DNA from: Gongronella butleri | Lineage: Eukaryota; Mucoromycota; Mucoromycetes; Mucorales; Cunninghamellaceae | Assembly: GCA_025201375.1 (NCBI GenBank) | Contig: JAIWZP010000008.1 | Span: 840,555 to 904,554, forward strand | Direction: 5' to 3' | DNA length: 64,000 nucleotides | Shown here: positions 1 through 58,880 of the stretch, piece by piece | How positions within the stretch are numbered: position 1 is the stretch's first letter | How the letters are laid out: each line of letters opens with the position of its first letter | Program-made: the position numbers and the translations under genes | The notes under the pieces: generated by a model | What the model was told of the DNA's origin: nothing | Databases searched by the model: none | The model's input: only the letters and a program-made list of their open reading frames with translations

Positions 1-2044
1 ACCCCCTTGCAAAATCGCTAGAAAATCCCAACTTATAAAAATCAACACTGTTCGCCACCAAGTGCCCGCCGCTCCATGATTCTTAGTGTCATTTGTGCAT
101 TTTGGATACTTTCTTCACGAAAATGAAGGTAAAACCGGGGGTTGATCTGGCCGTTGACGAGAAAATCAATATTTTTCTAGAAATTCACAATTTTGGCCCT
201 GGCGCGCTAAATTGTTATTCGATCATCCTGAAAACTTACAAGTGGCAAGAGACGCGTGCGGAGGTCATTTTATCTTAGTCTGGCAAAGCGGACGCGTTAT
301 CTTTGTACTGTACACTTGCAACGCCAGATTTAAAATTTCAATCCCCCCAATTTTCTCGGCAACGAACAAGCTTACTTATGATAAATTTGCAGTGACAAAA
401 AATGCAGAATCTGATTCTTTGTCAAATAAGGCAGATTTCACTGGCGTGCGATGAAAACTGATCGACAAATTCAAGTTTCTATACAGTAATTTGACGTTAA
501 TCGCCATTTCCTCGCGACCCGTCAAGTCAACCCCCGGTTTTTATTGCAGGTTTGCTTACAAAGAAGGGGTCAATGCATCGAGTGACATGACTCTCAGATG
601 CCCAACTTGTAGGTTGCCAAACTAATTTTCTTTTTCTCGGGGCCTCAGCCAATCAAATTGGCGGACCCTCCAGGTGCATTTCGACCGGACCAACTTCGCA
701 ACTTGTTTTTTTCCAAGAAATCTAAAAAAATATTTCACCACCAAAGACTCGTCGTAGCGTCACAAAACTTTCCCAACTATAGGATTTAGCTCTTCTCTTT
801 TCAGAAATAAATTAAAATCCCGATGTCAAATAGCTGGTTCTGCGAGTAACTTGACATTGCTGAAATTTTAGCTGTAACGCATTTTTCAAGAAATCATTTC
901 GCGGTAGAATCGTGCTTCAAGCACCGCCAAACTTGGAGTCATGTATTTTTTAACCCTCCTCTTTTCAGAAAAAATAAAAACCGGAAGTTTCTCTGGCCGT
1001 TGTCGAGATATGCACTGATTTCACGAATTTCCACAAAAGCAATGATGACCGCTGCAAGCAGTAGTAAGTAGACTGGTTCCAAAATTAGTCATTAGGTAAT
1101 TTTGCACGTCAATTCATAAATAAACATTAAAAACTAGTGCGTGATCGGGCTGTTGTCGACAATTTTAGCAAATTGGCAATATTTTCATGATTGCACAAAG
1201 TTAGTCTTCTACAAGATCACAAACCATGGATGCATGTCCCTCCAAACCTACGCATTAGATTATTTTTGGACGTCCTTTCGCTATAAACTCTTAAAAATCA
1301 GAGGTCGCCTTGTTGGGCGTTATACAGATGAATCCAAAATGCCGTTATTTTCACAAATTTAGCACAGGGTCTTGAAATATTATGTGGATCGCGTCAAAAA
1401 TAGCAGTGATCGAAAGAGACGTACTTGCACGTCATTTTTGGATTGTTTGCACGCCCGATGGACAACCTTTACACGCCTGCAAAAGTCGATCAAACATTGG
1501 ATAAATTTTCAAACTCGATTTTCTCGACATCCTGAAAAACAACCACCGGTGCTTTTAACGTGTTGAATGCAGCTGCTGAATCGCTGTCAAATGCAACAAA
1601 TTTTACTGCGATCTAATCAAAACTGATAGAGAAAATAGATTTTCCGAGCAATATCTGCAATCGCCATTTTCTCGAGAACGGCATAATAAACCTGTAATTT
1701 TTATCCCAGATTCAATAGCAAACAGGTGCCAAAGCATCTAATGAGATGACTCGCAGAGCGCTAACTTGGATTTGAACTTTTTGCATCGGTCATTTCTGTA
1801 GGCTGCAGCCCACTCAGGGCACAGAAATGTGCAAATTAAAAAAATAAAAAAATAAAAAAAATAAAAATTCCATGCAATCCACGCATCCCAAATTTGGAAG
1901 TCTCAAACCTTAAATTTTTGCAAAAATATCGCACCAACGTAGGCAATTTCTCAGTCGGTCACCGTTCATGCGTCACTCTTTGGCCAATTTTCTGAAGTTG
2001 GGGCGACCTGTCATTTTGTGTGCCAATCGCAGCTCGTCGGATTT
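1..2044 (+). repeat. Left arm of a large inverted duplication
   Basis: This arm is repeated in reverse complement at 2176-4819, with a 131-bp unique centre (2045-2175). Matching landmarks include position 1 (paired with about 4819), 1372-1566 (paired with 2658-2852) and 93-278 (paired with 4534-4719). The arms are nearly identical, with scattered substitutions. No gene is recognised in it; open frames are short and mirrored in both arms. Linear relatives of the centre plus one arm lie near 28.4-28.9, 39.0-39.6 and 57.8-58.9 kb, so this looks like an inverted duplication of a dispersed repeat rather than a simple terminal-inverted-repeat transposon. The left end may extend beyond the window. 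Confidence 0.9.
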
Positions 2045-2175
2045 ACCTGTTTGGGATGCATTGATCACTCGGACTTCGAAATTACCCGTTTTTGGGATTT
2101 AAATGTGTGACCCCTGAATTTTTAAAAAGTGGTCGTAGCGCTTTGGTGGTTTAAGCTTTTTTGTTGCAAATTTTG

Positions 2176-4819
2176 AAATCCGACGAGCTGCGATTGGCAC
2201 ACAAAATGACAGGTCGCCCCAACTTCAGAAAATTGGCCAAAGAGTGACGCATGAACAGTGATCGACTGAGAAAATTGCCTACTTTGGTGTGATTATTTTG
2301 CAAAAATTTAAGGTTTGAGACTTCCAAATTTGGGTTGTGTGGATTGCATGAAATTTTTATTTTTTTTTTATTTTTTTATTTTTTTTAATTTGCACATTTC
2401 TGTGCGGTGAGCGGGCTGCAGCATGCAGAAATGACCGATGCAAAAAGTTCAAACCCAAGTTAGCGCTCTGCGAGTCATCTCATTAGATGCTTTGACACCT
2501 GTTTGTTATTGAATCTGGAATAAAAATTACAGGTTTATTATGCCGTTCTCGAAAAAATGGCGATTGCAGATATTGCTCGGAAAATCTATTTTCTCTATCA
2601 GTTTTGATTAGATCGCAGTAAAATTTGTTGCATTTGACAGCGATTCAGCAGCTGCATTCAACACGTTAAAAGCACCGGTGGTTGTTTTTCAGGATGTCGA
2701 GAAAATCGAGTTTGAAAATTTATCCAATGTTTGATCGACTTTTGCAGGCGTGTAAAGGTTGTCCATCGGGCGTGCAAACAATCCAAAAATGACGTGCAAG
2801 TACGTCTCTTTCGATCACTGCTATTTTTGACGCGATCCACATAATATTTCAAGACCCTGTGCTAAATTTGTGAAAATAACGGCATTTTGGATTCATCTGT
2901 ATAACGCCCAACAAGGCGACCTCTGATTTTTAAGAGTTTATAGCGAAAGGACGTCCAAAAATAATCTAATGCGTAGGTTTGGAGGGACATGCATCCATGG
3001 TTTGTGATCTTGAAGACTAAATTTGTGCAAATCATGAAAATATTGCCAATTTGCTAAAATTGTCGACAACATCCCGATCACCCACTGGTTTTTAATGTTT
3101 ATTTATGAATTGACGTGCAAAAATGACATAACGACTAATTTTGGAACCAGTCTACTTACTGTTTGGAGCGGTCATCATTGCTTTTGTGGAAATTCGTGAA
3201 ATCAGTGCACATCTCGACAACGGCCAGAGAGACTTCCGGTTTTTTATTTTTTTCTGAAAAGAGGAGCGTTAAAAAATACATGACTCCAAGTTTGGCAGTG
3301 CTTGAAGCACGATTCTACTACCGCGAAATGATTTCTTGAAAAAAGCATTACAGCCAAAATTTCAGCAATGTCAAGTCGGTCGTGGAACCAGCTATTTGAC
3401 ATCGAGGTTTTAATTTATTTCTGAAAAGAGAAGAGCTAAATCCTGTAGGTGGGAAAGTTTCGCGGCGTTGTGACAAGTCTTTGGTGGTGAAATATTTTTT
3501 TAGATTTCTTGGAAAAAAACAAGTTGCGAAGTTGGTCCGGTCGAAATGCACCTGGAGGGTCCGCCAATTTGATTATTGGCTGAGGCCCCGAGAAAAAGAA
3601 AATTAGTTTGGCAACCTACAAGTTGGGCATCTGAGAGTAGGGTTGCTTATTGAGAATCTCGATCAAGATCTCGAAATCTCGATCGGCTTATTGAGCGAGA
3701 TGAGACGACTCCAATCTCGATCATCTCGCTAAAAAATAAATTTGAATCTCGAATCTCGATCGAAATCTCGATAAAAATTAAGTTTTAGTGTTTGTGTGCC
3801 ACCTGGACACAATAATTAATTCTCAAATCGAGCCTTGTGGCGTAATGGTTCTGTCTTTGCACGCCTCTCTGGTGATGTGGGGTTCAAATCCTAACTTTGG
3901 ATTGGATTTTCGAACACTTTTTTGATTTTTAAGCTGAACTTTTTGCTTGGAAATAGCTTACTTCTCGAAAAAGTCTCGAAATATCGATCAATCGTGATCT
4001 CAATCGTAATATCGATCGATTTCTCGATCGAAAATGTTCATCAAAAGGTCAAAAAATCTTTGAATTCTTGAAAAATGGGTGCATGAGAATCTCGATAAGT
4101 CTCGAATCTCGAAAGATGAGATGCTGTCTCGATAACCATATCGATCGAGACACGTCAAATTATTCTTCGATCGAGACGAGATGGGGTCAATCTCGTCTCA
4201 ATCGACCGATAAGCAACCCTATCTGAGAGTCATGTCACTCGATGCATTGACCCCTTCTTTGTAAGCAAACCTGCAATAAAAACCGGGGGTTGACTTGACG
4301 GATCGCGAGGAAATGGCGATTAACGTCAAATTACTGTATAGAAACTTGAATTTGTCGATCAGTTTTCATCGCACGCCAGTGAAACTTGTCTTATTTGACA
4401 GAGAATCAGATTATGCATTTTTCATCACTGCAAATTTGTCGTGGGAAACCTTGTTCGTTGCCGAGAAAACTGGGATTGAAATTTTAAATCTTGAGTTGCA
4501 AGTGTACAAAGATAACGCATCCGCTTTGCCAGGCTAAGATAAAATGACCTCCGCACGCGTCTCTTGCCACTTGTAAGTTTTCAGGATGATCGAATAACAA
4601 TTTAGCGCGCCAGGGCCAAAATTGTGAATTTCTAGAAAAATATTGATTTTCTCGTCAACGGCCAGATCAACCCCCGGTTTTACCTTCGTTTTCGTGAAGA
4701 AAGTACCCAAAATGCACAAATGACACTAAGAATCATGGAGCGGCGGGCACTTGTTGGTGGTGAGCAGTGTTGATTTTTATACCGTAAATTGGGATTTTCT
4801 AGCGATTTTGCAAGGGGGT
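2176..4819 (-). repeat. Right arm of the large inverted duplication
   Basis: Reverse complement of 1-2044. It is longer than the left arm because a 584-bp element (3638-4221) is inserted in it; apart from that insertion the arms align nearly base for base. The insertion is absent from the equivalent site near 596-603 of the left arm, so the duplication predates the insertion or the left copy never received it. No coding gene is recognised. Confidence 0.9.
3638..4221. mobile_element. Non-autonomous hAT-type MITE
   Basis: The element starts TAGGGTTGCTTAT and ends with its reverse complement ATAAGCAACCCTA, giving 13-bp perfect terminal inverted repeats. It is flanked by an exact 8-bp direct repeat TCTGAGAG at 3630-3637 and 4222-4229. 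The empty site, with one copy of that octamer (as its complement CTCTCAGA), is visible in the opposite arm near 596-603. An 8-bp target duplication is diagnostic of hAT-like transposases. The subterminal regions are packed with TCTCGA/GATCGAGA motifs, as expected for transposase-binding arrays. No transposase frame is present, so it depended on a partner elsewhere. The interior has a degenerate tRNA-like A box and B box (about 3838-3905). Confidence 0.9.
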
Positions 4820-28160: not shown

Positions 28161-28960
28161 CGAGAAAATTGCAAAAATGCAATTTTCATCCGCCACCTCC
28201 ATTTTTTATGATACTGTATCATAGTCACAGTGAGCAGAATTTGACGCGCGCTGTTGTCACATTTATATGATACAGCATTGTACTTGCAGCATCATCGCAC
28301 TTCTTTGATATGATGATACTGTATGATACTGCAATGTGCACTGCACAAAAATACGGTAGCACACATGCATTTGCCCTTGTTGGAAAACCAGATATCATAT
28401 CATACTGTAGCGCATTTTTTCAGACTTTGTTGTGCCTCCAGAATTTTTTTCACAGCCTATCTGCCCGCTGATAAAAATCGCGTCACGGCACGCACGAACA
28501 ACAGCCCAGTGCTCAGGATGCCTCTGCCCGATTTTTTTTGTGCCTGCAAATTCCAAAAAAGCAAAAACCTTCCATTTTCCCTATTATTTTGCATTTATCT
28601 CGCCTTCTGCACGGTCGACCCCGCTCAAAAATACAGTACTCGCATCGCATTCTGCGCGAAATTTGCAACAAAAAAGCTTAAACCCACAAAGCGCTACGAC
28701 CACTTTTGAAAAATTCAGGGGTCACTCAGGGGTCACACTTTTCAATCTCAGAAAACGCCTAATTTGGGAAATTTGGAACTCCGAGCGATCAATGCATCCC
28801 AAACAGGTAACTCCGACGATTTGCTATTGGCAGACAAAATGACAGGTCGCCCCAACGTAAGAAAAAAGCCCAAAGAAGAGCGACGCATGAACGCCTACCG
28901 GTATGTTGAATTTTCCGGGATCAAATACTTGGCTGGTAAAGACGTTTTAATCTCTTGCTA
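28160..28960 (+). repeat. Dispersed repeat family A, linear copy
   Basis: Aligns to 57770-58250 and to the centre plus one arm of the 1-4.8 kb inverted duplication. Shared blocks include tgtgcctccagaa (28432 and 57799), a run starting gcaacaaaaaagcttaaaccc, caggggtcactcaggggtca, and gatcaatgcatcccaaacagg. It carries several TACAGTA/TACTGTA insertions relative to the other copies. No protein is recognised. Confidence 0.8.
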
Positions 28961-31441
28961 GACGCCTAGGAAGTGCAGCACTTAGAGGCTACTGTACAGT
29001 ACAACGCGATGCCCCTGGATGTAAAATTTGATTTGGAATCGAATGGTGTTACTTTCGAGCCATGCTCTCTTAGTAAAAACGTGAAAAAATCGCACATTTA
29101 CCGCCAAAAATCAAAATAGGCCAAAATGTCGTAAATTGCAATTACTGTACAGTGCCCGGACAAAAAAAAGTTTCGCTGTGCATGATTCTCTGCAGTGCAA
29201 GGTATCAATTAATCGCGTTAATCTCTGCTGTATTGATCAATAATGGCTCCAGTGATATGAAATTTTGCAGGAACAATGATTTAAAAGTAAAAAAACAATT
29301 CTAAAATTATGAAATGGCTATGCCAAGCCGGTATTGAAATAGATCAAAAAAGGGATACCTGACGCGTCACGCGACGCGACGCGTGCCTACGCGTATACAA
29401 TGGCCTGTGGAGATGAATTGGCGTTATGAACACCATCTCCAATTTTTTTTTGCAACGAGTGCAATGGTGCCTGATTGTATTTTAAGAATCAATTCCATGT
29501 TACATGCATTGCATCGGTGCTGTGATCGAATAATGTAAAATCATCATGTGACACGCGTCACGCGTCAGACGCGCCAAAAGTCGCGATTTCCTTCGTAACA
29601 TGGTCGTAGTGCTCCTACTGGTCAACCAATCGATAACAGTCTATTCTAGTTCTTTAAATTAAATAAGTACAATGGTTTTAAGCCAACTAAGGATTAAAAT
29701 TAGATAACAGAGATGGCAATTGTTATTCCAGATGCAACTGACGCGTGACGCGTGTCACATGATGATTTTACATTATTCGATCACAGCACCGATGCAATGC
29801 AAGTAACATGGAATTGATTCTTAAAATACAATCAGGCACCATTGCACTCGTTGCAAAAAAAATTGGAGATGGTGTTCATAACGTCAATTCATCTCCACAG
29901 GCCATTGTATACGCGTAGGCACGCGTCGCGTCGCGTGACGCGTCAGGTATCCCTTTTTTGATCTATTTCAATACCGGCTTGGCATAGCCATTTCATAATT
30001 TTAGAATTGTTTTTTTACTTTTAAATCATTGTTCCTGCAAAATTTCATATCACCGGAGCCATTATTGATCAATACAGCAGAGATTAACGCGATTAATTGA
30101 TACCTTGCACTGCAGAGAATTATGCACAGCGAAACTTTTTTTTGTCCGGGCACTGTACAGTATCTCGAAATTTTACTAAGTTACGTAACGGACACCGTGT
30201 GAGAACTTTACTCGATTCTAAATTAAATTTTGCATCGAACTCGTGAGACAAAATGGCAATTTAAGCAGGTTTTGAGGTACTTCCATTAGAGCAAACCGCA
30301 GCATTTGAGCCAAATCTCTAAGTACTCAAAACCCAGCAAATGGACATGTAATTTAAACACCGCCATGAGTTTCTACGACCATGAAAAGATATAAAACGGC
30401 AAAACGCCATTTGCAGCTTCATCGTGATTGGCCAAAACCTGGTTGTACAGTAGCTGGGGTCGGGGGTACCGGTATTTGATCCCGGAAAATTCAACGTACG
30501 CCCTGTTGCCTGCTGCTGTATGTTTTGGCTCTGAATCTACAGTGCCGTACAGTATGATATGAAAAATGCCCATTTTCTCAGGACTGAGTGATCCGATCAC
30601 TGGAAAAACTTGGGATCATCGTAGTTTTGGGTCGAATGTCCACTGACCTAAATTTGGCGTGGCCGTACAGTAGATGGTCAGACTCATCGGGAAAAAACGC
30701 GTATAATACAGTAAATTATTTTTTTTTGCGCTGGATTTTCACTAGCAAACACGAACGTTGAGGTTTCTCGAGACTGGGTGATGATTCGATTCGCGAAAAA
30801 AGTTAACACCGTTGGAGAATTGGGTCCACCATCAACTGGTCCAAATTTGGGGCCAGATGAGCGAGTTTCTGAGAAAACGCCAGTTTCATAGGAGTAAATG
30901 GGGTACGATCAGCAGCATTTTGTCTCGTACTGCGGCAACAGCTAAGCGCCTCGACACGTGAGGCGCCTCAAATGAATCAGTGGTCAAACGCAGTAAAAGC
31001 GCTTGTGGTTTGGGGGTATCGCTTCACATTTTCGGCGAGTTAGCCTTGAGCAGTCGTTTTGATTCTGGTTTGGCCCTGATTTTACATAAATAAAATGAAT
31101 GTTCTCAGGAGTCAGGACTGAGTGATCCCATTTCTGAAAAAACTTGACATCACCGGCCTTTTGTGTTCAGAATCCTCTAGTTCAAATACAGAACCTGGTG
31201 AACAAGATCCGGGGACGTGCTCTGCAAAAAGGGGGTAAGGTCCTTTCCATTTTGGTAGCGTACGCAACAACGGCCTAACGTATCGACGCGCGAGTCACCA
31301 CAAATGAGATCAAAAACGTTATCATAATAACGGCGCTTGTGTACAGTATTAGAGACATTGCGTTGAGTTCTTAGCGAGTTGGTGTGCAATGATTCTAAAA
31401 ATTCGCATTTTCGATATTGGTTTGACAGATATGATACTGTA
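28212..31441. other. Cluster of Tc1/mariner-type excision footprints
   Basis: The heptamer TACAGTA or its complement TACTGTA occurs at 28212, 28317, 28403, 28632, 28990, 28995, 29143, 30156, 30446, 30548, 30666, 30707, 31342 and 31435. That is fourteen by eye in 3.2 kb, against fewer than one expected at random. The form TA-CAG-TA / TA-CTG-TA is the known excision footprint of Sleeping Beauty-type transposons, whose ends start CAG. Comparison with paralogous repeats supports insertion of 5 bp at a TA (see findings). Confidence 0.75.
29150..30155. mobile_element. 1006-bp foldback MITE with Tc1/mariner-type ends
   Basis: Left end CAGTGCCCGGACAAAAAAAA and right end its reverse complement, flanked by TA on both sides (29148-29149, 30156-30157). 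The terminal inverted repeats are about 420 bp each (29150-29571 and 29737-30155), nearly perfect, around a loop of about 165 bp. CAGT termini with a TA target duplication are typical of Tc1/mariner. There is no transposase frame. The symmetry extends 5 bp outward (TACTGTA / TACAGTA), so the true termini could instead be CTGTACAGTGCC. Both arms carry dense ACGCGT-type repeats near 29361-29391 and 29910-29942. Confidence 0.85.
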
Positions 31442-38924: not shown

Positions 38925-40756
38925 GCAATACGTATCATATGTTCTCATATTCTGTCAATGATGAAAAGCTTGAACCTCAATCTATCATGGAATCAAAGCG
39001 CTTGCGTGTTGTAGAGAAGATGGCGTTGAGATTCCGGCGACTCGGTGTGCAATGACTGTGAGAACTCGCATTTTCGATTTTAATTTGGCAGACAGGATGC
39101 TGGTTTGACTCTGCCTACCAGTCCATAAAGAAAATCCAGATTGAAAATGGATGAAATGTTTGATTGACTTTGGCAAGCATACAAAAGTCACGCACTGGGC
39201 AAACAAAGCGTTCCAGAAATGACGCCCGAGCCCGTCTCATTCGATCAATGCAAGTTTCATTGCGATCGAAGAAAAAAATGTTTGACAAGACGGTGGCACG
39301 GTGCTAGAATTGTGCAAATGTCGATATTTTGGATTCATCTGCACAACGACTCTACTGAACTCTGATTTTCAACGCCATGTTGAAAAAAGACGCAAAAAAA
39401 TATGATATGATACAGTATTACTGTACAAAAAAGCTTTCGAAAGCAAAAGAAAACATTTTCCCGGCCGGGTTTTGACGACTTGCTGTGCCTCCAGAATTTT
39501 TTTTATCATACAGCCTTCCTGCTCGCAGGTGAAACATGCGTCGTCACGGGCTGACCTATGATACACTGTAGAGAAGTGGCAAGAAGGGAGCAAAATTCTG
39601 CAACTCTATGCATGTTGCTGAATAAATTACGTTTCCATCATTTATCGTTTCAATTTTTTTTCTCGGTCTGATCCAGCGGCACCGCAACTCTATCCAATCT
39701 ACATTACGATACATGCAAGCCTTTTAGCGCTTACTTTGGGCTTTTCTTTCATTGCAAACAAGCAAGCAAGCAAAAAAAAAAAAAAAAGACGCCACGGAGA
39801 ACACATTTGTGAACAAATTGATCCATCAATGCTGCTTGTGGACGATGCGACACTCTCAAAATGAATAAAACGATTTTTTATATCTTGGTGTAGACTAACT
39901 CATGGTATGTGCCCAAAGAACACTGTCGTACCTATAAAAAGACACGTCTCATGATGCTCTTGGCGCCATTGTGAAGAAAATAAGCCTTTAATGACGCGTC
40001 ACCTGACCCATCCTTGTCAAACGCAGTCGATCTCTTTATGTCATTGCGGGCCAGTGTCGCACGCTGTCACAATGAGAGACACTGAAATGGCCACGGCCAC
40101 TTTTTTTTCGACGCGTTTGGTTGCTCAATCGAGTTTAATGTTGCCTTGACTGCGCGGAATGAGGTGGATCGACTTCAACTCAGCGCTGTTCAGTGCAAGG
40201 TAGCCTAAATTGACACACCAAGCCTGATTCAGCAACCTTTGGTGGCACACGTGTGACGCGTCTCCCAAAATAAAAAGTGGTTCAAGCCAATTGAACATTC
40301 GTGCGCTTGGTCCGCATGGTGTGCATGATGTGCATGACGTGTGTGGGCTGCAAGCAGTAAGCGACTGAAAAAAAAAGAGGATTGGCCCACTTTTATGCAG
40401 CAACAGAGCCAATGAGAGCATCCAATCAGATTGGATCGTTATAGATTGTTTGCTGTTTTCCATTTTTAGATCTCCGCCCTGAAATAAGCTTTCCATTTTT
40501 CATCGTTTTGTGCCTGTGTTTCGCTTTTCCCTGTCTTTTTCTCTTTTTCCTTGGATTCCCTTTTGCTTTGTATTGACCAGCAGCCTGTTCTGTCTTTTTC
40601 AGTCCTTTTGCTTTTGTGGCCCACTTACTACACACAAAGACACACGCCTCCTCGTTTACAGCGCCTCCTTGCATATACCTTCTCCTTTTTTTGGCTCAAA
40701 AGGATCCCCTTGCGCACCCTTTTTTGCTTTTCTGACCTCGTTTGACGCCATAGCCC
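38799..40756. other. Intergenic region with repeat family A fragment
   Basis: About 2 kb with no gene recognised. It contains a T run at 38890-38921, a repeat family A relative (39010-39600) and AAGC repeats near 39760. A T/C-rich leader precedes the next gene (40520-40600). Confidence 0.6.
39010..39600 (-). repeat. Dispersed repeat family A, divergent copy
   Basis: Aligns to 31360-31475 (39016-39130), to 2720-2940 of the inverted duplication (39160-39380; shared ttttggattcatctg and ctctgatttt) and to 28430 and 57795 (tgtgcctccagaatttttt). Two adjacent footprints, TACAGTA 39411-39417 and TACTGTA 39419-39425, interrupt it. Confidence 0.65.
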
Positions 40757-56934: not shown

Positions 56935-57760
56935 GATCAATGAAAAAGAAAAAAAATGAAAAAAAGAGCGAGCGAGACCCAAACCGAATCTGAAACTCTA
57001 TCGCCGATCACTTTTATGCAAATCGGTGTTACCGCGCGCTATGATAGTACAAGTTGTCGCTGCGGTCGCTCCTCACAGAAAAGAAAAAAAAAAAAGAAAG
57101 AAAGAAAATCGCCCTTGTGAGCAGTCTTTTTCATATTTGCCACCATACACCACCACATTAAGCTAATAATTGGGCAACACATTCTGCGCCAATTGTTGCC
57201 GACAACATCGAAAGCGAAGCACTACTATGATATGCTGCTTGAAAAAAATGGCATTGAAAATGGTCTGGTTGATTTTCAAAGCTTGCGTCTCCTTTCCATG
57301 ATCGGACTCTCTTCATGGCAAGTTACATTGGAATTACAGTAACTGAACACTTGCTATCATTACGCGTGCTTGCTCGAGGCTGCTGCACGATGCCTAAAAA
57401 ATGTTCCAACGACAATTTTACTTTTTCGCGGTTTTTTTTGCATTTGTATGCCTTTGCCACAGTGAGCCTTCCTAAATACAGCACTACAAAACAAAGCGCC
57501 TGAGATACGTACAGTCGTTGGGCGGCTCGCGGCTGCATAAAGCAATACTGTACTGCCGTAAGTCTCCCAGAACAGAAGATCATGGATATACAGTAGTACG
57601 TACGTTAAAGTTCAACTTTGTGCATTTTAGATTTTAAACCAAACCTCCTGTTACTGTACAAATAAATAAGCGTGCACAAGTGCAAGCTGCCCGATACTGT
57701 ACAACTGTTGTAGTAGTGTTTTAGTGCCGTGCCACACGGCACAAAAGAATGTTTTTTACC
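56935..57760. other. Non-coding region with footprint heptamers
   Basis: Upstream of fRMsr. No gene recognised. TACAGTA/TACTGTA occurs at 57335, 57546, 57589, 57652 and 57695, which marks the start of a second transposon-footprint island. Confidence 0.6.
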
Positions 57761-57769
57761 TTTCAAAAT

Positions 57770-58880
57770 CGCGTTTTTCAGACTTTGCCGGCCTGCTGTG
57801 CCTCCAGAAATTATTTTACAGTCTACGTGCTCGCTAATGAAACTTGCGCCACGGCATGAATTACGGTGTAGTGCTCACGACGACGATTCCGCCCGATTTT
57901 TTTTGGACTCAAAAATGTAAAATACTGTATCTCCAATTTGTACTATTTCGCACCCATCTCGCCATCCACATGGAAGACCGCCCTCAAAAATAGTTGTATC
58001 GTGTTCAGCGCAAAATTCGCAACAAAAAAGCTTAAACCCCCAAAGCGCTACAGTATGACCACTTTTGAAAAATTCAGGGGTCACTCAGGGGTCACTCAGG
58101 GGTCACATTTTAATCTCAGAAAATGCCAAATTTGGGATTTTTCGAACTCCGAGCGATCAATGCATCCCAAACAGGTAAATCCGACGATTTACCACTGGCA
58201 GACAAAATGGCAGATCGCCCCAAACTTGAGAATAATGCCCAAGGAGTGACGCATGAACGGCGATCGACTGAGAAAACTGCCTACTTTGGTGCAATATTTT
58301 TGCAAAAAATTAAGGTTTGACACTTCCAAATTAAGGTGGTGGATTGCATGGAATTTTCATTTTTTTACAGTATTTTTTTATTTTTTACTTTGCACAATTT
58401 TATGCGCTGGGTAGGCGGCAGCCTGCAAAAAAAACCGATGCAAAATGTTCAAACCCAAGTCAGCGCACTGCGAGTCTTCCCATTAGATGCTTTGATCCCA
58501 TGATTGTTAGTAAATCTGGAATAAAAGTCACAAGTTTACTAGACCGTTCCCGAGCAAACAGCGATTGCAGAAATTGATCAGAAAAGCTATTTTCTCCGTC
58601 AGTTTTGATCAGATCGCGGTGAAACTTGTTGCATTTGAAAGCGATTTAGAATCTGCATTTGACACGTTAAAAGCACCGGTGGTTGTTTTTCTGGATGTCG
58701 AGAAACTCGAGTTTGAACATTTATCCAATGTTTGATCAACTTTTGCAAGCGTATAAAGGTTGTCCATCGGGAGTCCAAACAATCTGAAAATGACATCCGA
58801 GGGCGTCTCTTTTTTTTATCGGTACCAGTTTCATTTATAGCCTCCACCAAATATTTTGGGGTCCTGTGCTAAATTTCTGA
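57770..58880 (+). repeat. Dispersed repeat family A, longest linear copy
   Basis: Matches 28430-28880 and, continuing, the centre plus right arm of the inverted duplication (about 2045-2870): landmarks gcaacaaaaaagcttaaacc, tcaatgcatcccaaacagg, ccgatgcaaaatgttcaaa and ttatccaatgtttgatc. It carries footprints at 57923, 58049 and 58366 and a tandemly amplified ggggtcactca unit (58078-58106). Confidence 0.85.

Follow-up and report, generated by a model that had tools for sequence, protein, structure and literature searches.

Putative excision footprints of Sleeping Beauty-like Tc1 transposons in Gongronella butleri and the location of resident elements between footprint-like sites

Introduction

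In the genome of the mucoralean fungus Gongronella butleri, the heptamers TACAGTA and TACTGTA occur far above chance and very probably represent footprints left by the excision of Tc1-like (Sleeping Beauty-like) transposons, an interpretation drawn from the internal comparison of one genome, to which a probability of about 0.93 is assigned. Residents of the main, CAG-ended family occupy, for the ends inspected, TA dinucleotides with a CNG triplet on either side. This distribution suggests that the family prefers sites bounded by its own scars or survives best there, with preferential landing, trapping and carried ends not fully separated as causes.

The Tc1/mariner superfamily is usually described as requiring little beyond TA at its target. 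If the transposon does home to its own scars, this would constitute a self-made target specificity. The scars furthermore serve as a countable record of excision, with approximately 16,000 heptamers against approximately 73 residents of the main family, whose copies alone would imply modest activity; a single assembly thereby allows past transposition, the result of mismatch repair and the choice of targets to be measured.

Abundance of the heptamers in the window and in the genome

The window is the whole 64,000-nucleotide stretch analyzed (contig JAIWZP010000008.1, positions 840,555 to 904,554). It contains 31 copies of TACAGTA/TACTGTA against an expectation of 0.99 from 100 dinucleotide-preserving shuffles (sd 1.01, maximum 4), and the pair ranks first among the 7-mers over-represented relative to dinucleotide expectation. 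It also ranks first, with 457 copies against 8.1 expected, in a 262-kb sample of 21 stretches, which is biased in that 20 of them were picked for containing transposases. The preliminary description had reported about 30 copies in the window, 14 of them at 28.2-31.5 kb and 8 at 57.3-58.4 kb, and these figures agree with the counts obtained here; its chance expectation of about 8 per 64 kb was an overestimate, which makes the true excess larger than first stated.

Across the 33.0-Mb genome, the heptamers number 16,213 (8,059 + 8,154), far above background. Scaling from the window, which may be atypical, gives an expectation of roughly 500 and hence an approximately thirty-fold excess; the reversed word occurs 6,355 times, although it is not a composition-matched control. 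Just one of the 31 window heptamers lies inside an open reading frame of at least 150 aa, these frames (called mechanically, without an intron model) covering 51% of the window and holding 602 of its 1,825 TA dinucleotides. Among the genes of the window, one for purine biosynthesis matches a G. butleri protein with 100% identity across 94% of the ORF. The positions of the main features are collected in Table 1.

Table 1. Features of the window discussed in the text (window coordinates); footprint assignments are putative.
Feature	Position	Strand	Basis
Island of 14 TACAGTA/TACTGTA in non-coding DNA	28212..31441	.	Window count, 7-mer ranking, ORF overlap
Second island, 8 TACAGTA/TACTGTA	57335..58372	.	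Window count
Putative double footprint TACTGTACAGTA	28990..29001	.	Window count, 7-mer ranking
Putative two-class footprint chain TA-TGA-TA-CTG-TA-TCA-TA	28207..28223	.	Context reading, window scan
Putative footprint chain, TATGATATGATACAGTA then TACTGTA	39401..39425	.	Window count and scan
TACGTA, putative 2-nt footprint variant	30182..30187	.	Paralog comparison
TACTGTA in only one arm of inverted repeat 19-4801	306..312	.	Arm comparison
TACCGTA, putative CCG-class footprint, in only one arm of inverted repeat 19-4801	4780..4786	.	Arm comparison
Non-autonomous Tc1-like element, palindromic MITE, 1,010 bp including TA duplications	29148..30157	.	Ends TA-CAGTGCCCGGACAAAAAAAA
TACTGTA adjoining left end of MITE	29143..29149	.	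Paralog comparison
TACAGTA adjoining right end of MITE	30156..30162	.	Paralog comparison

Insertions between paralogous repeats

The footprint interpretation is carried mainly by a census of insertions that distinguish aligned paralogous repeats, from which indels that lay close to the ends of alignments or were poorly flanked were excluded. Among insertions of 5 bp, 36 of 70 contexts, counted as distinct strings and not proven to be independent events, have the form TA-NNN-TA. Without exception, these 36 belong to three classes, namely CAG/CTG (25), TCA/TGA (6) and CCG/CGG (5); the remaining 34 are of other kinds. TA-bounded insertions are absent at lengths of 2, 6, 7, 11 and 12 bp (0/123, 0/24, 0/28, 0/19 and 0/7, respectively) and are found at 3 bp (12/166), 4 bp (7/77, four of them TACGTA), 8 bp (2/29), 9 bp (5/22) and 10 bp (6/25, including double footprints), an insertion of 1 bp being unable to be TA-bounded.

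Comparable differences are found within the window, where positions 19-4801 form a large inverted repeat of approximately 4.7 kb with long and similar arms, two heptamers of which are restricted to one arm (Table 1). The census, the arms and the paralogs of window sites together bear out the proposal that many of the heptamers represent 5 bp inserted at a TA in one copy of a repeat. The opposite pattern, heptamers at homologous positions in all copies of a repeat, is generally not observed; one exception in the window is the pair at 482/4332, present in both arms, which must predate the inverted repeat.

These observations bear on three other explanations. Growth of (TACAG)n as a tandem repeat with a 5-bp unit, or drift of low-complexity sequence, could be invoked for the runs of up to five units that occur in the 262-kb sample, but 372 of the 399 clean runs consist of one unit only, 20 of 45 neighboring pairs in runs of at least three units are made up of matching units, which is near random order, and the insertions lie at dispersed TAs in single copies; the order of units and the prevalence of single units led us to discard microsatellite growth, and this explanation is considered extremely improbable. 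A regulatory or structural motif under selection, such as a binding site or an origin, would suit the clustering of heptamers in intergenic islands and is given an equally negligible chance, in that the presence of heptamers differs among near-identical paralogs, three triplet classes share one form, and little context is conserved, save that the heptamers tend to form chains with another TA at a distance of five bases. It is also very improbable, if marginally less so, that the heptamers are mostly intact MITE ends: element tips do read TACAGTG and do adjoin heptamers, but main-family ends number only 146 genome-wide against the 16,213 heptamers, and a known tip lies near just 33 of 432 runs in the 262-kb sample.

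Scar classes and the proposed mechanism

Of the 32 TANNNTA pairs in the 262-kb sample, only TACAGTA, TATCATA (224 for TATCATA/TATGATA vs 13.7 expected) and TACCGTA (41 vs 7.4) exceed expectation more than four-fold. In each class, the outer bases of the triplet are complementary and the middle base is variable, as predicted for two annealed 3-nt overhangs with a mismatched center. By middle base, the C-N-G heptamers of this sample comprise 229 CAG, 228 CTG, 22 CCG and 19 CGG, and the T-N-A heptamers comprise 224 TCA/TGA and 35 TAA/TTA, the latter against 10 expected. TACGTA is likewise in excess (80 vs 17) and would be the same scar minus its middle base. Some longer TA-bounded words with spacers of 4 to 8 are also enriched in this sample, which is attributed to multi-copy repeats and chained scars.

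According to the available text of PMC3432063, the footprint of Sleeping Beauty is TAC(A/T)GTA, in keeping with the earlier statement that Tc1/mariner elements with CAG ends leave such a heptamer; the sections of PMC7827188 at hand describe 3-nt 3' overhangs arising from a staggered cut, followed by end joining. On this model, the transposase would insert the element at a TA and later cut it out with 3-nt staggered ends; CAG overhangs at the donor site would pair as C:G, A:A and G:C, and repair of the A:A mismatch would yield TA-CAG-TA or TA-CTG-TA. Elements with CCG ends would correspondingly leave TA-CCG/CGG-TA, a predicted TCA/TGA-ended family would leave TA-TCA/TGA-TA, and chains would arise from repeated hits on one TA. 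While the scars themselves are seen here, the excision chemistry is taken over from Sleeping Beauty.

The abundant TATCATA/TATGATA class, absent from the preliminary description, accounts for 19 sites in the window, including 28207, 28217, 39401 and 39406. Neither the element tips of the sampled loci nor a genome-wide pattern revealed a resident family ending in TCA or TGA. That pattern gave 140 matches; among the 100 listed, three words occur twice, one of them as an outward-facing pair 2.1 kb apart and close to a contig end, and no inward-facing pair as expected of an element was seen. The maker of this class may be extinct or unsampled.

Tc1-like families

The genome contains at least 74 stretches matching PF13358. 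The main family, with TA-CAGTG ends, is 1,337 bp long and exists in near-identical copies, six sampled copies having 0-2 differing positions over their length; nine autonomous copies are identical across a 153-bp end, of which 30 identical bp recur at the second end as a terminal inverted repeat. Its transposase matches both PF01498 and PF13358 over the cut-off, has 34 residues from the second D to the E (DD34E spacing), and finds its best PDB match in Sleeping Beauty SB100X (E = 3.1e-29). TA flanks the sampled copies, and a single TA occupies the empty paralogs of the window MITE, as expected of a TA target site duplication. On the basis of this duplication, the terminal inverted repeats, the HTH and DDE transposase and the form of the footprint, the family belongs to Tc1/mariner. 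A search for a transposase gene of this kind, proposed in the preliminary description, thus led to a Tc1-like family in near-identical copies, and the census, the CAG-ended family and the Sleeping Beauty form of the footprint jointly support its reading of the heptamers. The Sleeping Beauty subfamily in the strict sense has long IR/DR ends that each hold two transposase sites; the second end of the CAG family matches 30 of the 153 bp, and the nearest proteins to its transposase come from short contigs.

Palindromic MITEs of approximately 1,010 bp share the ends of this family, and ends with TACAGTGNCNNGNCAAAAAA number 146 genome-wide, corresponding to approximately 73 elements. From its CAG ends, the family is the probable maker of the CAG/CTG scars. 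Another recent family, 1,634 bp in length, has CCGTGGC ends, and three elements end in CCGTACCCTA; ends of the CCG type (CCGTGGC, CCGTACCC) fit the third enriched motif, TACCGTA.

Sites occupied by resident elements

The triplets bounding the CAG residents at both sides are likewise absent from the preliminary description. Outside 130 of the 146 CAG-family ends lies TA-NNN-TA, and at 100 such ends among the matches listed NNN is always CNG (CAG 47, CTG 46, CGG 5, CCG 2), a composition close to that of all such heptamers in the 262-kb sample. Ten of the other 16 ends were inspected: two tandem junctions, CACTG-TA-CAGTG, account for four of them, two more carry CTG but no outer TA, and the last four, with TTG, TTG, GTG and TAG, are the non-CNG ends. 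Altogether, CNG is found at 106 of the 110 ends inspected; for comparison, among 10,254 TAs it occupies 9.5% of the sides, and 127 of these TAs have it on both sides. The 1,634-bp family has CNG at 1 of 20 ends in ten copies, an eleventh copy without one end being left out. All six ends of the three CCGTACCC elements have CWG-TA, and a single element with CACTGACTG ends (L037) is without such flanks.

The MITE in the window, whose arms are 99% complementary, shows 0 internal differences from a copy in locus L028, and the two differ in their flank triplets, which are CTG/CTG in the window and CCG/CAG in L028. Such different triplets on internally identical copies, together with the tandem junctions that have no triplet, indicate that the flanks are probably older scars and not parts of the element. 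At the MITE site, 20 out of 41 other matches were read as paralogs; a plain TA is present in 19 of these and TACCGTA in the remaining one. In the same stretch, TACTGTA is found at another TA in one paralog and two heptamers are found in one. Comparison of ten more residents, with their two flanks joined, to the 262-kb sample gave no close empty site among the matches listed.

The TACGTA at the right of the MITE (Table 1) is the window's own, no such insertion occurring in the paralogs read, with the exception of L075, which has two heptamers there. In this paralog of window positions 30,177-30,187, the sequence TACTGTATACAGTA represents two scars linked by TATA, which looks like the departure, minus its end triplet, of an element that lay between two footprints.

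Additional regularities were noted among the flanks. One end of the nine autonomous CAG copies is flanked by CTG in eight, while the other varies, which hints at inheritance or an orientation bias, although the numbers are small. Flank pairs among the matches listed are direct in 26 cases and inverted in 12 (p = 0.03 against equal), and free double footprints of the 262-kb sample are direct in 29 and inverted in 26, so that the fit between the two is loose. Two of the four non-CNG ends have TGATTG in common: two MITE copies, at the left flank of L048 and in L092, carry this same odd sequence before the TA and differ in their outer sequence. The tandem elements, which share one common TA at the junction, are located at L039 2696-5040 and L051 41-2054.

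Possible reasons why residents sit between scar-like sites

The explanation given somewhat better than even odds is that the CAG family lands preferentially on footprint-bounded TAs, with each excision helping to build the next site. This is favored by the faster growth of runs with an internal TA, 11 of 27 of which have grown further, compared with 27 of 399 clean runs in general (p = 3e-6; the sets overlap, and 33 of 432 runs near element tips were dropped), and by elements that adjoin other elements, whose tip provides CTG-TA. Integration is favored by target DNA that is flexible, bent or mismatched, as described in the available part of PMC7827188. On our reading, the A:A mismatch of a newly made scar would provide a target of this kind. 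Were landing restricted to double footprints, single ones should be rare, yet they dominate as noted above, and one recent single scar occupies an ordinary TA in a clade of the 1,634-bp family that is approximately 1% diverged. The history of the window site also counts against a landing preference, as two earlier visits and the present insertion must be assumed, and the growth of long runs could reflect TAs that are unequally hot, without any liking for CNG.

It is also possible, but unlikely, that the CAG family enters any TA and excises fast unless CNG lies on both sides, in which case residents would be survivors and single footprints would mark passing visits. Trapping of this kind would reconcile the predominance of single scars with residents at CNG-TA-CNG, and it accords with heptamers far outnumbering residents and with the recent single scar at an ordinary TA. 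Few new scars would then be expected at trapped sites, yet runs with an internal TA grow approximately six times more often, a scarcity that uneven heat of TAs could mask.

Equally doubtful is a mobile unit CNGTA-[CAGTG...CACTG]-TACNG that enters a plain TA with the triplets traveling along. Near-universal flanks, the plain TA in 19 of 20 paralogs, the single footprint as the main scar, the TGATTG flank in two copies and CTG at one end in eight of nine autonomous copies would all follow from such carried ends; different triplets on internally identical copies, junctions without a triplet and the two further ends with CTG but no outer TA speak against them. In view of the flank-pair ratio, the eight-of-nine regularity and the unequal heat of TAs, the landing preference was graded down and carried ends were graded up.

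Taking preferential landing further, the transposon may home to its own scars, a proposal to which slightly less than an even chance is given. Excision would lay half of a CNG-TA-CNG site, two scars would make a full site, and further scars would be added, generating dispersed safe harbors in insertion-tolerant DNA.

Comparison with known systems

Footprints, reinsertion at the same site and excision surveys are already known, the latter two from the portions consulted of PMC1925063 and PMC4423477, respectively. The G. butleri family resembles Sleeping Beauty in its TA target, its TAC(A/T)GTA scar (in the available sections of PMC3432063) and SB100X as the nearest PDB transposase, but it is natural and fungal, with scars in the thousands. 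Zebrafish ZB, as far as the accessible text of PMC7913693 describes it, is also a Tc1/mariner element with footprints of 0-3 bp and a palindromic target around TA; it prefers ATATATAT, whereas the CAG residents of G. butleri lie in CNG-TA-CNG. In the beta-amylase intron of Triticeae, one TA was repeatedly entered and left by Stowaway MITEs, with one insertion beside an older footprint, according to the part of PMC1925063 at hand; that case concerns one locus, whereas here approximately 73 residents have nearly all inspected ends bounded by footprint-like sequence. A genome-wide survey in rice similarly catalogued scars through comparison and listed, in the excerpts available of PMC4423477, 94 putative excisions, the majority showing deletions or filler, unlike the uniform 3-nt scars found here in thousands. 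Among the records listed by the literature search, no report was recognized of scars at such a scale, of residents confined to scar-like sites, or of homing.

Minor observations

Dating by heptamer decay was set aside, since repeat copies confound it. Inverted repeats composed of footprint chains (e.g., L042 5,855-7,570) appear element-like and were discarded once their context had been read.

A different DDE_3 transposase open reading frame of 312-336 aa is present in L016, L017, L018, L020 and L021, and in five of six copies it lies approximately 0.6-1.3 kb from a contig end. The final 140 bases of these contig ends show no telomere-like repeat; the ends could be subtelomeric or could be assembly breaks.

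Finally, a TACAGTA scar lies within the 1,634-bp element in both L033 and L034; the simplest reading is a visit by a CAG element to one copy, which later moved with its scar.
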